This document shows, in pieces, positions 3,376-43,439 of a stretch of DNA of 51,127 bases. The translations under genes and the position numbers were made by a program. The first letter of the stretch is position 1. Every line of letters starts with the position of its first letter. Below the pieces are notes generated by a model that worked only from the letters and a program-made list of their open reading frames with translations, had not been told where the DNA came from and searched no databases. Source of the DNA: Candidatus Gastranaerophilales bacterium (GTDB lineage: Bacteria > Cyanobacteriota > Vampirovibrionia > Gastranaerophilales > Gastranaerophilaceae); assembly GCA_944323275.1 (NCBI GenBank), contig CALUSA010000007.1, positions 1 through 51,127 on the forward strand. The letters are read 5' to 3'.

Positions 3376-3711
3376 TTAAATTTTGAATTTTTTATTATTT
3401 AATTTTTTCAGCGCATCTTCCACTTTCATTGCCTGCGGTTTTTTCCCTATATAATGTTCTATATTTGTGCGTATCTCAAAAAAGAAGACATTTTTTGAAA
3501 GTTCGATTAGTTTATCAAAATCTTTTTTGCTGATTATATATAAATGTGTTCGGTTTTTCGGCTTTTTAACGCCGAGGGTAATATAATCCCAGCTTTTTTC
3601 TTTTTCTCTTAATTCATTTCTAAAATGTTTTATTTTATCAGTGTTGCCTTTTATCTTCTGGAACCTTCCAAAAGACGGGCTGTGGCTGTGTAGTGTTATG
3701 TTTCGGCTCAT
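3376..3711 (-). CDS. Small unknown protein with N-terminal Phe motif
   Basis: The 111-residue basic protein is not recognised. Near its N terminus it has SFGRF (residues 13-17), resembling the S/N-F-K/G-G motif of other unknown proteins in this window (at 34630, 37151, 39549, 40040 and 41808). The rest is mixed helix and strand, Lys-rich, with no signal peptide or membrane segment. The C terminus (EDALKKLNNKKF) is very basic. It converges with the response-regulator gene, and the 158 bases between them show no clear terminator. Reading-frame length and the shared motif support a real gene. Confidence 0.65.
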   Translation of the reverse strand: MSRNITLHSHSPSFGRFQKIKGNTDKIKHFRNELREKEKSWDYITLGVKKPKNRTHLYIISKKDFDKLIELSKNVFFFEIRTNIEHYIGKKPQAMKVEDALKKLNNKKFKI

Positions 3712-5919: not shown

Positions 5920-7158
5920 TTATTTCCAGGCTTTTAACAAGCTTGCTAAGCCCATCAAATCGTCTTGATTATAATTGGGCTGATAAAATTGAAATTCATG
6001 CCTGTAAGGGAATTCATTTTTTATTGCTTTATCCAGAGTGGAATATTTACGCACCGCTGCAGTTCCGTCTTCTCTTGCAACACGTTCGCAGTATTGATTT
6101 AAATAGCCTTTGTAATCCTCTTTCGGTGATATGTAATGTTCTGAGGAATATTTATATTTTTCTATTTTAGGGATATCTCCGGGCTTAATAAATTTTTTAA
6201 AATCATTGCCCATATCTATTCCGTTTTTATGCATATCATACATAAGCGTTTTTTCTGCCCATTTTGCGTGGGAAACTTCATGTCCTATTGTTTCTGTAAG
6301 AGATTCACGCGGTGCGGACAAATCTCTTGAGCTTTTAAGATTTATATTAACATCACCCGTATAAAAGCCGCTTTTTGCAGAAGCCTCTTTATATAATTTG
6401 ATTTCAGGCGGCGCAATAAAATTAGCATCTTCTATGCAGGCATTAGCCATTCTGTTTGTAAACTTTGGAGTCGGGCTGACATAAGGTAAAAAATAGCTGT
6501 TTTGTGCAATTTTTTTTAATTCGCCTGAAGACGCCCGTGAATTTATAAGATAAAAATCCCCAGTATAGTAATCATCAACTTTGTATTCATTTTGGAGGAA
6601 TTTTGGCTTTTCGCCGCTGCGTCTTTGTTCCAGCAGAATATTTTCATTATTCACTCTTGTTGTGCGGGGCTGAGCGGCAGGCGTAATTGTTCTTTGAAAA
6701 TGTGTAAGATACGGTTTTGGTTCATCACTTACAGCGAATGTATCTTCTTGTATTTGTTTTATTTTGCCGTTTTCCCTTGTGTAGGAACGTACTTTTTTTC
6801 CGAAAATATCCATCACTTCTTTTCCGGATTCGTCCATATCTTTTTCCCACGGAAACATTTCCTCATAACCTTTATGAGTTTCTTTAATATTTTTTCCGTC
6901 CACCTGCTTAATGTATCTGTTTACAATTTGTCCGCTTTTATCCCTGAAGGTTAAGACATCCGTATAATGCAGTGCAGGGTTATTATTTCTGCCTATTCTG
7001 ACGATGTCACAGGTGTGTGCAGTTTCCGGCAGCTGTAGTTTAAACCCTTCTTTTGCTGCCATAGAAGCATCAAGACCCGTTTCTTTTCTGATTAATGAAG
7101 CACCTTTTGAATTTACTTTGTTTAAAACAGTTTTTACCGTATTTATATTTAGTTGCAT
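5920..7158 (-). CDS. Unknown protein with HExxH (zinc-peptidase-like) motif
   Basis: The 412-residue protein contains GHEVSHAKW, with HEVSH at residues 293-297. This is the HExxH motif of zinc metallopeptidases, placed in a C-terminal domain. A third ligand could be a Glu in the downstream QYCERVARE segment. The N-terminal ~200 residues are polar with repeated beta-rich stretches (FRDKSGQIVNRYIKQVDGK) like toxin or substrate modules. No signal peptide is seen. The start has an AGGGTG ribosome site. Protease activity is plausible but unproven; it could be a structural zincin-like or secreted effector protein. The 131 bases towards the DUF2142 gene contain nothing obvious. Confidence 0.7.
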   Translation of the reverse strand: MQLNINTVKTVLNKVNSKGASLIRKETGLDASMAAKEGFKLQLPETAHTCDIVRIGRNNNPALHYTDVLTFRDKSGQIVNRYIKQVDGKNIKETHKGYEEMFPWEKDMDESGKEVMDIFGKKVRSYTRENGKIKQIQEDTFAVSDEPKPYLTHFQRTITPAAQPRTTRVNNENILLEQRRSGEKPKFLQNEYKVDDYYTGDFYLINSRASSGELKKIAQNSYFLPYVSPTPKFTNRMANACIEDANFIAPPEIKLYKEASAKSGFYTGDVNINLKSSRDLSAPRESLTETIGHEVSHAKWAEKTLMYDMHKNGIDMGNDFKKFIKPGDIPKIEKYKYSSEHYISPKEDYKGYLNQYCERVAREDGTAAVRKYSTLDKAIKNEFPYRHEFQFYQPNYNQDDLMGLASLLKAWK

Positions 7159-34629: not shown

Positions 34630-35199
34630 ATGAACAATACAGTATCTTTCGGTGCAAAATTTATACGTGAACTCCCGATAAAAAAATATTCATATACAGA
34701 CAAAGTCTATAAAGATGATGTTGCGAGTCTTGTTGAGCTTGAGCCACAGAATGTTGATGATTTAAAAGCTCTTGAAGATATCGCAATAGATTTTGGCGGT
34801 GATACTTATGTTAACAATATCTTTGTGGATGCAAAGCTGAAGGCAACTGCAGACAGAAAAGATACTAAATTTAAAATACTTGCACTGACCATCCAGACAG
34901 ATTCATTTGATAAATTAAATTCCGGCGCAACACTTGGTGTTGCTAAAATTTCTAAAATAAAAGAAAAAGAAATAGAACTTGAGTATTTACAGGTACATCC
35001 ACGTTTTGTTTATTCTTTCGGTCCTGCGTTTGTTAAACATACAGGCAGTGCAATAATTGATTATCTAAAACTTATGAATGACAAAATATGTTTGATAGCT
35101 TCTCCTTCTTCTCATATTTTTTATAAAAAAAACGGGTTCAAAAAGCTTTCTCAAAACGGAAATCATATGATATGGGTAAAACATAATAATGTAAAATAA
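34630..35199 (+). CDS. GNAT-like acetyltransferase with N-terminal Phe motif
   Basis: About 189 residues. The C-terminal half looks like a GNAT acyltransferase: LEYLQVHPRFVYSF..KHTGSAIIDYLKLM corresponds to the acetyl-CoA strand and helix region, and IFYKKNGFKKLS to the FYxxxGF motif. The usual Q/RxxGxG/A loop is not clear, so activity is uncertain. The N terminus (MNNTVSFGAKFI) carries the S-F-G-A motif shared with unknown proteins here. ATG 34630 is chosen over the upstream frame start at 34612 because it places the motif where the others have it. Confidence 0.65.
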   Translation: MNNTVSFGAKFIRELPIKKYSYTDKVYKDDVASLVELEPQNVDDLKALEDIAIDFGGDTYVNNIFVDAKLKATADRKDTKFKILALTIQTDSFDKLNSGATLGVAKISKIKEKEIELEYLQVHPRFVYSFGPAFVKHTGSAIIDYLKLMNDKICLIASPSSHIFYKKNGFKKLSQNGNHMIWVKHNNVK

Positions 35200-37150: not shown

Positions 37151-37717
37151 ATGCAAATAAGTTTTAAAGGTATAAAAAATCCGGGTGCATACACTCATCA
37201 CCAAAGATACGCCCAGTCAGTTTCAACAGGCGGTCAAAGTTATATTTTACCCAAAGGTCGTTCAATTACTTTCCACTGTGAACTTACCAATAATGGCGGC
37301 AAGGATTTAGACGAGTTTAAGGATATTTTAAGGGCTTTTCCTAACAAATATAATCCGAATTCGCTTACGGTCGGTTATGAATGGTTTATAAATCCTAATA
37401 ACGGACAAAAAAATCGCCTTTATTTTATTAATAATAACCATATTGAGTTGAATGAAGTAACTTTCAACGTTTTTAATAAAATATTTAAACTAATGAAAAA
37501 AATTTCTTCAATGCCACGTGAACAAATCATTATTAATAATTCTTATTTGACAACTCCTGAGGCTAAGGATGCATTTTTAGAATACACGGCATACAATACA
37601 ACACCGGATATCTATAAAATTCTTAATGAGGCGCATAACAGGGATAATGTCCTTGCGGGAGCAAAGCTTATGGGCAAAAAATTTGCAAATGCTCTTACGG
37701 CTTATGTATTAAGCTGA
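37151..37717 (+). CDS. Unknown protein with N-terminal SFKG motif
   Basis: About 188 residues from ATG 37151, preceded by GGAAG. The longer frame from 37052 adds a hydrophobic stretch without a ribosome site, so I consider it untranslated. The start MQISFKGIKN shows the motif at residues 4-7. The rest is soluble mixed structure (TFHCELTNNGGKDLDEFKDIL, NRLYFINNNHIELNEVTFNVFNKIF) with Asn-rich segments. No known family. Confidence 0.68.
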   Translation: MQISFKGIKNPGAYTHHQRYAQSVSTGGQSYILPKGRSITFHCELTNNGGKDLDEFKDILRAFPNKYNPNSLTVGYEWFINPNNGQKNRLYFINNNHIELNEVTFNVFNKIFKLMKKISSMPREQIIINNSYLTTPEAKDAFLEYTAYNTTPDIYKILNEAHNRDNVLAGAKLMGKKFANALTAYVLS

Positions 37718-39548: not shown

Positions 39549-40037
39549 TTAACTGTCTGCAAAATAAGAATTCGTTGAAAAGAGTTTAGCAAAATAACTT
39601 TTTATCCTGTCCAGAATATTATTTTTCTTTGATTTACGGTGAGTAAAGATATCTCCTGCGTGGTGTTTTAAATTTGGCTCGTGCTGCATGGTCAAATCTA
39701 TGTTTCGTTTCCATTCTCCTATTGTTTCCAGATTTTGTGCAATATATTTTATTCCGTTTTGAAAATTTCTGCCAACATAGGTAATTTGGTGCTCATGCAT
39801 ATTTACACCGCCGATTTTATAAGGATGTTTGTACTGTGTATTGACACGAAAAAGCACATTTCTTTTGTTATTATAAAAGTTCAGTGAAATAAAATGGTCT
39901 ATTGTGTTATTAGCCGTATGGTGCTTGAGAGTATGTATAATGTTTCTGTACTCTTTTGCGTACTCCCGTGCGGTTTTATTGGTAAAATAAACTTTACCTT
40001 TAAAATTTTGCGAATATTTATTCTGTTTTATCTCCAT
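39549..40037 (-). CDS. Unknown protein with N-terminal NFKG motif
   Basis: The 162-residue basic protein has QNFKGKVYF (motif residues 11-14) near the start. The remainder is His- and Asn-rich (IIHTLKHHTANNTIDHFISLNF, HEPNLKHHAGDIFTHRKSKK). No signal peptide, membrane segment or known family. It is the last gene of a three-gene operon, starting two bases after the stop of the 582-residue membrane protein. All three products carry the motif. Confidence 0.7.
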   Translation of the reverse strand: MEIKQNKYSQNFKGKVYFTNKTAREYAKEYRNIIHTLKHHTANNTIDHFISLNFYNNKRNVLFRVNTQYKHPYKIGGVNMHEHQITYVGRNFQNGIKYIAQNLETIGEWKRNIDLTMQHEPNLKHHAGDIFTHRKSKKNNILDRIKSYFAKLFSTNSYFADS

Positions 40038-40039
40038 AA

Positions 40040-41788
40040 TTACATTGCGCTGTAAAAAGCACCAAAGGTTTTTGTATTTGCATTGTTCGGCACGAATTCG
40101 TTATTAAGCTTCATTTTATCAGTAATAAGCTCCTGCTTCGGATTTTGTGTTTTAGCCGTTTTTTTATTCTCACAGTATTTTGTAATTGCGATGTTAAGCT
40201 TTGGAATGCCTACGCCGAGTACAACACCTGAATAAATATAACCGAGCATCTGGGCTGCGTTTTTATATTTAAGTTTAGATAATGTTTCTTTAACGAGTTT
40301 TTGTGCTTCAGGTGTAGCACCTTCTTGTTTTGCTGCTGCTTTTAATTCCGTAATAAGTTTTCTGAACGGAACTGCTTTGCCGTTTTCGCCGATTGTATTT
40401 ATACCAAGCTTTTTAAGCGCAGGGAATAAAATTTCTTCGTGAGTTTTTTCAACGGAGTGTTGTATAAACTTCCACGTACCTTTGCCATACTTAGCTTCAT
40501 CATAGTTGATTATACCTTTGTTAAAGGCTTTAGCGGCAAGCTTAGACACAAAACCGCCTAAAATCAACCAGTTTGCAAAACCCAAAGAATCTTTAATTGC
40601 AGATTCTCTGGCTTCGTTTTTGTCACGTGCGGCAAATATACGGCTCATAATAGTCATACCGTATATAAATTTAAATTGATTGATAGTCGGCACCATGCCT
40701 TTGTATTGCAGATTAGAAACAAGTTCTTTTGCTGCTTTAGGCAGGTTTGTATAGAGTTCTGACGGTTTTTTGAGGATTGTTGCAATCATGGCTGATCCCA
40801 TACCCACACCGAGAATGAGTTTTGCAATCTTAAAGCCCAAAGAATGATCCGGTTCTCTGCCTTCAACACCGACAAATCCGTCTGAACCCGTACGTTTTTT
40901 GGTAAGGTATCTGTTGATAGGCTGTGCTGACATACCTACGGCAACAGGGAATGCAAGACCTGCAGCAACCGTTGCAGCTTTTTTGTTCTTAATTCCTTTA
41001 AGGAATTTTTCAAGGTCCTCAACTATTGCAGTTTTGTCATTCTTTGCTTTGTCAATAACAGCTTTAAGCATAGAATTGGCATTGCCTGTCAAATCCTTTA
41101 TAGGTGCTTCTATAGCATCTGTATTATTTTTAATTACAACACGATATGTTGAACCTGCACCTGTTTCACCTGTAATAAGTTCAGAAATTTTTGCCATTGC
41201 AGAATCCGGAACTTTATATTTTTTAGCTCCTTCTTCAACCATTATTTGCGTAGCTTTTTGGACTGTTTCCTCAGAAAGCTTTTTCCAGACCTGTTCACCG
41301 TCTGTTGTATTAAAACCTTCTACGCTTCTAAAGAATGTTTCCCAGTATTTTTTAGCATCATAGCCGTTTGTTTTGTCTGCGCTTATATTAACAAACTCTT
41401 TAAAAGTGTCTATTGCATTGGAATCCATAAACATAAGGTGGGCTTTTACGCCGTTAGCCCTGTTAAATGCTGCCGATACGGCATAACCTGCACCGAGTCC
41501 GACAATACCGGCAAGAGCGTGGTTTATTGTACCTGAGGATTCTCTAAATCCTGTTTCCATGCCGGCATCTTTTGAACGACCGAAATCAACAAGGGTTCTT
41601 GGCATAACCATTGAGAAAAAGTCAACAAAGCAAGCACCTATGGCAGGGCTGGTATTAAGAAAATTTAGAGCCTGTGTTCCCATTGCACCGAGGCTTTTAA
41701 AGCTCGGGGTGTTGTTTTTATTAGTATTTAACGGGGTTGAATATTTTAATGTTTTCGGTTGTTGAGTTTGTGTAATTTGCGATAGCAT
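40040..41788 (-). CDS. Large membrane protein with SFKS motif, paralogue of its upstream neighbour
   Basis: The 582-residue protein has an Asn/Thr-rich N-terminal tail ending in SFKS (29-32). A conserved DFFSMVMPRTLVDFGRSKDAG..FRESSG block follows, then several hydrophobic stretches (~90-110, ~270-290, ~325-345, ~400-420, ~525-545). It shares with the 543-residue neighbour the PRTxVD...RESSG block, a PINRYLTKKRTG-like segment, PTxxQ...SR..A..DKNE, and a C-terminal KTFxAF. The repeated hydrophobic segments suggest a multi-pass envelope protein or a long amphipathic secreted protein. Family not recognised. Confidence 0.75.
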   Translation of the reverse strand: MLSQITQTQQPKTLKYSTPLNTNKNNTPSFKSLGAMGTQALNFLNTSPAIGACFVDFFSMVMPRTLVDFGRSKDAGMETGFRESSGTINHALAGIVGLGAGYAVSAAFNRANGVKAHLMFMDSNAIDTFKEFVNISADKTNGYDAKKYWETFFRSVEGFNTTDGEQVWKKLSEETVQKATQIMVEEGAKKYKVPDSAMAKISELITGETGAGSTYRVVIKNNTDAIEAPIKDLTGNANSMLKAVIDKAKNDKTAIVEDLEKFLKGIKNKKAATVAAGLAFPVAVGMSAQPINRYLTKKRTGSDGFVGVEGREPDHSLGFKIAKLILGVGMGSAMIATILKKPSELYTNLPKAAKELVSNLQYKGMVPTINQFKFIYGMTIMSRIFAARDKNEARESAIKDSLGFANWLILGGFVSKLAAKAFNKGIINYDEAKYGKGTWKFIQHSVEKTHEEILFPALKKLGINTIGENGKAVPFRKLITELKAAAKQEGATPEAQKLVKETLSKLKYKNAAQMLGYIYSGVVLGVGIPKLNIAITKYCENKKTAKTQNPKQELITDKMKLNNEFVPNNANTKTFGAFYSAM

Positions 41789-41807
41789 ATATAATCCTGT
41801 TTGTTTT

Positions 41808-43439
41808 TTATTTATTTTTGTCTAACATCATACCAAACGCCTGAAAAGTTTTTTTGTTGCCGGTTAAATTTAAAGACGGGTAGGTGTGGAAACTGTTATA
41901 TCTTTCAGCCATTTCTTTCTGGACTTTTCGTTCCGTCTGCTTTCTTACATACCAGGGTACTAACATGCCGAGTATGAGCATTGAAAATCCGAGAGAAGCA
42001 CCTTCGCAAACATATCTGAGTCCTTTAGCCTTTTTAGATACTTTTGCGGCTTCAGAGAAGGTTTTAAGCTCTGTTCCGCTTGCCCAGTGTGCAAGATTTT
42101 TACCGAAATCAACGATTGGTTTGTTTGATTTTTTCGGAGCATTTTTAGTATAGTTCAAAAGCGGAACTTTTGTAAGCTTTTGAATAAAATATCCTACACC
42201 TTTTGCAACATAATCACCTAAGAAATATAAACTGCAGAAGGTTGCAATATCACGCCAGGTAACTTCATGCAGCTCGTTTTTGTCTTCGGAAGCAAGCATA
42301 CGGCTTGCAAATGTAGAGGTTGCAATCCATCTGCACTGATCCATTGTCGGCATATTTTTAGTGAACTGCAGACCTTTTAAAATGTTTGACAGACTTGATT
42401 TGTCTTTTAGTGATGCGTATGCCACGCCTGCCATAAGAGCTGCAGCACCTATTTTTTGCAGCCAGAAAGAAGATTTTTCCTTCGGCTTCATTTCTCTTTT
42501 CTTTTTCTGTGTGCCAAAATCTTTGTAAATAGGGGCACCTTCCTGACCGGAAGTTTTTCTTGTAATCCATCTGTTTATGGACTGCATTGAAGCTGCAAGC
42601 GGAATAACAATAGCCAAGCCCAGAAAACTTTTTTTATTGATGAATCTTTTTGATTCTTTGAAATAACCAGCAAGTTCTTTTTGGACTGCTTTTGCAACTT
42701 CTTGAGAGCGGGAGCCTGAAAGTTTGCCGGCTTTAAAATCCTGTGTAACCTGTCTGATTGCACTGCGTTTGTGTTCTAAAAAGTCTTGACCGACATCCAT
42801 TGCGTCACGCAACAGTGTGTGTAAATCAGCATGGTAAGTTTTGCCTGCAATTTGAATATGTTTTGAAGCACCTGTCATCTCGAGAACTTTTTTCTCTAAG
42901 TTTGACACAGCTGCAGCTTTTTCTTTTTTTGTTGCCAGTTTGTTAGCCATTGTTCTGGCAAATTCCATACGTTCGTTTTCAAGGTTAATGCCCTTGAGCG
43001 GTTTCCATTCCCGTCCGTTTAAAACGCTGATATCATCTAAAAGCTTGTTGGTAAAGCTCCTTGAGCCGCCTTTAGCTTCAACAAAATGTTTGTTTAATGT
43101 TGTGATAGCATCTTCGTTAGCCCATTTTGAAGCCATGCCTTTGTCTTTTGGGTTAACAAATTCGAGCAGCTTTGCAACGCCGTAAACAATAAAGCCGGGT
43201 ATCAGGCAGTTTACGATAAGTCCTGAGGATTCTCGTCTGAAGGTTTCTGCAGCGGCGAAGCCGTTTGTTTTTGCGTCTACCCAGGTACGTGGCAAAATAG
43301 CCGTGGCAAGGTCAATGATGGAAACATTTATAATTTCCGGCGGAATACCTTTAAAAGCCTGACGGCTTTCCTTGCGTGTTTTTGCCTCTTGAATATTATT
43401 ATTTCTGTAAACTTCTTTAGGTTGAATACGTGTAATCAT
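41808..43439 (-). CDS. Large membrane protein with AFKG motif, paralogue of the next gene
   Basis: The 543-residue protein carries QAFKG (28-31) after a polar N-terminal tail, then ILPRTWVDAKTNGF..FRRESSG. Hydrophobic segments (LIVNCLIPGFIVYGVAKLLEF, IGAAALMAGVAYASL, GFSMLILGMLVPWYV) alternate with charged loops. It matches the downstream 582-residue protein along its length: PRTxVD, RESSG, INRWITRKTSGQEG, PTMDQCRW..SRMLASEDKNE and a terminal KTFQAF. The two genes are 19 bases apart and arose by duplication. Divergence is high, suggesting distinct roles or a heteromer. Confidence 0.76.
   Translation of the reverse strand: MITRIQPKEVYRNNNIQEAKTRKESRQAFKGIPPEIINVSIIDLATAILPRTWVDAKTNGFAAAETFRRESSGLIVNCLIPGFIVYGVAKLLEFVNPKDKGMASKWANEDAITTLNKHFVEAKGGSRSFTNKLLDDISVLNGREWKPLKGINLENERMEFARTMANKLATKKEKAAAVSNLEKKVLEMTGASKHIQIAGKTYHADLHTLLRDAMDVGQDFLEHKRSAIRQVTQDFKAGKLSGSRSQEVAKAVQKELAGYFKESKRFINKKSFLGLAIVIPLAASMQSINRWITRKTSGQEGAPIYKDFGTQKKKREMKPKEKSSFWLQKIGAAALMAGVAYASLKDKSSLSNILKGLQFTKNMPTMDQCRWIATSTFASRMLASEDKNELHEVTWRDIATFCSLYFLGDYVAKGVGYFIQKLTKVPLLNYTKNAPKKSNKPIVDFGKNLAHWASGTELKTFSEAAKVSKKAKGLRYVCEGASLGFSMLILGMLVPWYVRKQTERKVQKEMAERYNSFHTYPSLNLTGNKKTFQAFGMMLDKNK

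Follow-up and report, generated by a model that had tools for sequence, protein, structure and literature searches.

A short phenylalanine-centered tag near the N termini of otherwise unrelated proteins was found in contig 7 (CALUSA010000007.1) of the 2.27-Mb assembly GCA_944323275.1 of a Candidatus Gastranaerophilales bacterium, a stretch of 51,127 nucleotides with 35% GC that is referred to below as the window. The tag was shown to be a selected N-terminal short linear motif on about 5% of this genome's proteins. In its full form it is bipartite, with M-x-[I/V] at the start, a polar tail that is poor in acidic residues and from a few to about 55 residues long, and then [P/V/I]-[S/N/A]-F-[K/G]-[G/A/S].

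The genome was sampled as 851 kb in stretches, 800 kb of which lie outside the window, and relatives were sampled in stretches of 113 to 260 kb for most and of 60 to 100 kb for three class outgroups; these samples from relatives are small, and genes were called with a simple in-house caller. Of the 756 proteins called in the genome itself, 41 form the high-confidence tagged set, which was obtained by rule and then curated by hand and on which the composition tests rest. Some tagged proteins are paralogues of one another, and the counts are therefore partly nonindependent. With the window left out because it had suggested the hypothesis, [SN]F[KG][GAS] was found in residues 2 to 60 of 33 of 676 proteins. 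When residues were permuted within each N terminus, the pattern occurred in 6.3 ± 2.5 proteins, with a maximum of 15 in 500 shuffles, and internal segments used as a control gave counts of 2 and 5. Replacement of Phe in the pattern by Tyr, Leu, Ile, Val, Trp, or Met gave no enrichment, so that the excess is confined to Phe. An unbiased k-mer screen of residues 2 to 36 against internal segments, with the window included, ranked SFK first (29 proteins versus 4.75 expected) and PSF second, and a position-weight matrix trained on the same sample gave 38 matches versus about 1.3 expected. The N-terminal motif is real, and the evidence for it is stronger than could be shown when it was first noticed.

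Within the tagged set, the Phe lies at residues 5 to 59 (median, 18). It is preceded by Ser in 32 of the 41 proteins and by Asn in 6, with Pro, Val, or Ile two residues before it in 33; Lys directly follows it in 32 (the position is taken by Gly, Ser, or Asn in the other 9), and Gly or Ala comes next in 34. The tail is enriched in Asn, Pro, Gln, Thr, and Ser and depleted in Asp, Glu, Leu, and Gly. In addition, Ile or Val occupies residue 3 in 71% of the tagged proteins versus 16% of the others, a second element that was not a selection criterion. This element, the scarcity of acidic residues in the tail, and the Pro, Val, or Ile ahead of the Ser had been missed in the first-pass annotation, which had described the Phe motif itself. 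Hydrophobic segments occur in 4 of 41 tagged proteins versus 216 of 682 others, and the hydrophobic core of a Sec signal peptide or lipoprotein is not found in the polar, Leu-poor tails, for which no program specific to signal peptides was used. The codons for the Ser, the Lys, and the Gly or Ala of the motif vary among tagged genes, which argues for selection on the peptide; a DNA-level element was dropped on the same ground.

Two tagged proteins of the window form a paralogous pair that extends across the order. Both are encoded on the minus strand, one at 40040..41788 (582 residues, helical and partly hydrophobic, with SFKS at residues 29 to 32, encoded at 41693..41704) and the other at 41808..43439 (543 residues, with AFKG at residues 28 to 31, encoded at 43347..43358). 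They share 26% identity (E value, 4.7e-13) and are encoded in tandem in most of the genomes sampled from the order. Among 26 sequences of the 40040 family, M1 and F30 are the sole invariant residues in the first 40, and among 25 sequences of the 41808 family, M1, I2, F29, and G31 are invariant within the tail; the variants of the motif among orthologues include SFKS, AFKS, NFKG, GFKG, SFRG, NFGN, NFKS, RFTG, and QFTG. AlphaFold2 models both bodies as mostly helical and, in these two families, places the motifs inside tails modeled as disordered (residues 1 to 48 of 40040 and 1 to 43 of 41808; predicted local distance difference test [pLDDT] score of <50). Such a pattern, in which the Phe stays fixed while the disordered tail around it diverges, is what marks a short linear motif. 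A fold search with the 40040 model returned no Foldseek match with an E value below 0.3, no match with a Z score of ≥5, and no clear PDB match, which is not proof of a new fold. The pair was also considered as the reader of the tag and dropped, because genome G038 lacks 40040 yet shows in-frame tag-like starts. At their C termini, the two proteins end in KTFGAF (40040) and KTFQAF (41808); KTF(G/Q/S/A)AF is conserved there in this genus and is possibly a second short linear motif.

The remaining tagged proteins of the window are smaller. That at 39549..40037 on the minus strand (162 residues; NFKG at residues 11 to 14, encoded at 39996..40007) has matches in three genus members, and two orthologues (L158 and L161) show HFKG. 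On the plus strand, 34630..35199 encodes a GNAT-like protein with SFGA at residues 6 to 9 (34645..34656), whose matches in relatives begin at residues 1 to 4, and 37151..37717 encodes a 188-residue protein without assigned function with SFKG at residues 4 to 7 (37160..37171). The weakest member, which falls outside the strict set, is a 111-residue protein at 3376..3711 on the minus strand with a tag-like SFGR at residues 13 to 16 (3664..3675). A Pfam scan of the six proteins gave nothing above the cutoff, the sole weak match being GNAT for 34630. The first-pass annotation had placed the motif correctly in all six, had described three as consecutive in one operon (39549, 40040, and 41808 follow one another on the minus strand with gaps of 2 and 19 nucleotides), and was right that glnA, prmC, lysA, and eda of the window are without it. 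Its description of six unrelated proteins fails for 40040 and 41808 and holds for the rest, among which there is no mutual BLAST similarity and no common Pfam family; since those two are paralogues, there are five unrelated families rather than six. Its argument that common descent cannot explain the motif has to be given up within this pair and stands across the remaining families. Elsewhere in the window, the uncharacterized protein encoded at 5920-7158 has a zinc-peptidase-like HEVSHA motif, is untagged, and matches no Pfam family above the cutoff, and an ATPase and HNH-like pair at 15888-18936 matches the PADLOC candidate defense system PDC-M62 (E values, 2e-48 and 8e-53), with weaker Septu matches.

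The tagged share is 5.6% of the sample from this genome and 0 to 5% in the smaller samples drawn from its genus, family, and order; in the small samples from class and phylum outgroups, it lies at the control level or close to it. A strict DNA pattern for the tag gave 73 matches in frame versus 16 and 26 out of frame in 59 relatives (P = 5e-11), and 54 of 71 stop-free in-frame matches fall in this genus; because few lie outside it, equal tag density across the order is not claimed. The same pattern gave 29, 23, and 19 matches by frame in 79 genomes outside the order, with no significant excess. Across these samples, this genus carries the tag densely, the other families of the order carry it more sparsely and in looser form, and outside the order it was not detected. 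Of 71 proteins whose conservation extends beyond the order, none is tagged, compared with 40 of 651 others (P = 0.026). The original idea of a lineage-specific sorting, secretion, or anchoring tag is upheld in part, as far as a lineage-specific, N-terminal element on unrelated proteins, conserved within a disordered tail and missing from these 71 proteins, is concerned; its destination and reader are matters of inference. Neither the tag nor a nonflagellar type III secretion system (T3SS) in this order was found described in the literature searched, which did not cover subscription journals and preprints. The whole tagged set was scanned in one batch with NCBIfam and Pfam, and no tag model was present among the 25 listed of the 132 NCBIfam families matched. 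In the sample from G106 (L077 to L086), type IV pilin-like starts (FTLAEV), present in about 13 of 185 proteins, were the main signal of the N-terminal screen.

Most tagged proteins are without recognized function. The domains that were recognized include those of an AAA-M41 protein, a protein kinase, a DnaQ-type exonuclease, a LysM-lysozyme-amidase protein, and a GNAT-like protein. Outside the strict 41, a GlgA-like glycosyltransferase has the looser motif SFGY at about residue 56, and a DSP-type phosphatase has the variant TFKT. A PGI match was treated as a likely false positive.

The published composition rules for Pseudomonas syringae T3SS effectors ask for Pro or an aliphatic residue as the third or fourth residue, for a first stretch of 12 residues free of Asp and Glu, and for Ser above 10% of the first 50 (PMC3338616). 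The first holds for 33 of 41 tagged proteins (80%) versus 323 of 682 others (47%), the second for 32 (78%) versus 230 (34%; P = 3e-8), and the two combined for 63% versus 17%. The Ser rule holds for 10 of 41 (24%) versus 71 of 682 (10%), most tagged proteins falling short of it and using Asn instead, so that the tail follows two of the three rules well and the third partly. Like the N-terminal signals of T3SS substrates (PMC3338616), the tail is disordered, polar, and acid poor, has its aliphatic residue at position 3 or 4, and lacks a cleavable Sec signal; unlike them, it adds a near-fixed [S/N]F[K/G][G/A], is dominated by Asn rather than Ser, and belongs to proteins whose export is here only proposed. 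Early flagellar substrates have an N-terminal hydrophobic signal and a downstream gate recognition motif, which is Phe led in FlgD and must there be separated from the signal by at least 19 residues (PMC8983047). The tag is similar in that a hydrophobic element right at the N terminus is followed downstream by a docking-type motif. It differs from the FlgD signal in its often shorter spacing, in the Lys and Gly or Ala after the Phe, and in the lack of clear enrichment of hydrophobic residues at the fourth position after the Phe. A FlgD-type gate recognition motif was dropped because the spacing fails. PEP-CTERM and the type IX C-terminal domain are lineage-specific sorting tags, and they share with the present tag the occurrence of one short element on dozens of proteins that are unrelated but belong to one lineage, and a presumed dedicated reader; unlike them, the tag is N-terminal and has no hydrophobic stretch and no basic stop.

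FHIPEP (FlhA/SctV) proteins were found in 58 of 58 searched genomes of the order. Most of these genomes have one flagellar-type FlhA and a second full-length FlhA, and some have the second kind only. In the genome studied here, the second FlhA scores below the NCBIfam cutoffs for both FlhA and SctV and adjoins a FliI-type ATPase (L182:7401-10856); in relatives, it lies in operons with FliE, FliF, FliH, and an uncharacterized protein of about 330 residues (L186:10080-16066, L154:3690-9578, and L188:13994-19825). This second type III export apparatus, which some genomes without a flagellar-type FlhA also have, may build either a flagellum or an injectisome. The second FlhA occurs in class families f9, f14, and f15 as well (60 to 68% identity) and, in more distant form, in f10 to f12. 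A membrane-less protein of 486 residues with the FlhA cytoplasmic domain only (L185:1868-3328) is present at full length in the 38 genomes of family f1; most genomes in the rest of the order have the same partial FHIPEP match, and the protein was not found in class families f8 to f15. The distribution of this soluble FlhA_C-like protein resembles that of the tag, and the protein, restricted as it is to the order, could be the tag reader. A further protein, at L184:1333-3453, fuses a part that by eye resembles the uncharacterized protein of the T3SS operons to an FlhA cytoplasmic domain.

The reading that we tentatively favor is that the tag is a targeting signal for this second type III export apparatus, of the FliE-FliF-FliH-FlhA-FliI type and distinct from the flagellar set. 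The apparatus would read the tag as an unfolded peptide, the Phe motif would provide docking to the export platform, for which the soluble FlhA_C-like protein is a candidate site, and the aliphatic residue 3 would then initiate translocation; the cargo would be a lineage-specific set including a kinase, a phosphatase, an acetyltransferase, a cell-wall hydrolase, and uncharacterized proteins. The T3SS-like tail, the two-part layout, the occurrence of FHIPEP proteins throughout the order, the restriction of the soluble FlhA_C-like protein, like that of the tag, to the order, the few hydrophobic segments, and the effector-like domains suggest this reading, and it is from them that we infer a link with type III export. 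Several points weigh against it. T3SS substrates are not known to share a strict Phe motif; in roughly half of the tagged set, the members with the Phe at residues 5 to 18, the spacing is below the 19-residue minimum of FlgD; and a hydrophobic residue four positions after the Phe is hardly enriched (0.44 versus 0.35). Families f9 and f14 hold the same apparatus, yet their sampled proteins show no tag excess. Genome G025 has an in-frame tag match and a single FHIPEP match, and the soluble FlhA_C-like protein may therefore be dispensable. Flagellin sampled from the genome itself is without the tag, and an AAA-M41 protease and a DnaQ-type exonuclease are odd cargo for export. The wider scheme, an undescribed sorting pathway in which [P/V/I]SFK[G/A] on roughly 5% of the proteome is recognized by an order-specific reader, for which the soluble FlhA_C-like protein is a possibility, and the tagged proteins are passed to a second, undescribed type III apparatus, through which common gut bacteria would deliver dozens of enzymes to their surroundings or host, is rather doubtful as a whole.

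An intracellular docking tag is as likely as the type III reading. The Phe motif would then bind a pocket on an order-specific scaffold (at a cell pole, on the inner membrane, or in a protein body), so that proteins would gather at one site without export, which fits the free tail length (F at 5 to 59), the presence of ATP-dependent and DNA- or sugar-active enzymes among the cargo (AAA-M41, DnaQ-type exonuclease, and GlgA-like), and the sister families that hold the T3SS without the tag. Such docking does not, however, predict a T3SS-like composition with Ile or Val at residue 3 and an acid-free start, and its candidate scaffold is still hypothetical. An export or surface signal for another route, whether type IV or type II secretion or an undescribed system, is unlikely, since known type IV secretion signals are mostly C-terminal and the tag is N-terminal. 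It would nonetheless agree with the few hydrophobic segments and with lineage-specific cargo that has cell-wall hydrolase, kinase, and phosphatase domains, and type IV secretion is reportedly discussed in a paper on the relative Vampirovibrio (PMC4451040).

The short, exposed, disordered motif near the N terminus might instead mark proteins for N-terminal processing, modification, or regulated degradation. We regard this as improbable, because modification of the Lys does not suit a residue that is replaced in 9 of 41 proteins and the depth of the motif is too variable for an N-degron. Tagged genes do cluster, with 9 adjacent pairs versus 2.0 expected, and some are paralogous, as a functionless leader inherited through gene duplication or spread by recombination would have it; codon differences between tagged genes, an invariant Phe in tails that diverge across two families, and the lack of a tagged homologue in the sample for most tagged proteins strongly disfavor such an origin. 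Chance occurrence in the Asn/Lys-rich, AT-rich N termini of a low-GC genome is refuted here by the failure of shuffles, internal segments, and Phe substitutions to reproduce the excess and by the preference of matches in relatives for the correct frame.

The order consists of gut bacteria that are nonphotosynthetic relatives of cyanobacteria and whose interaction with the host is largely uncharted. A readable tag allows the cargo of a sorting route to be listed from genome sequence alone. As an export tag, it would predict the set of exported proteins and point to the second type III apparatus; as a tag for docking inside the cell, it would reveal an unrecognized compartment or scaffold. Either reading is directly testable through mutation of a single Phe.

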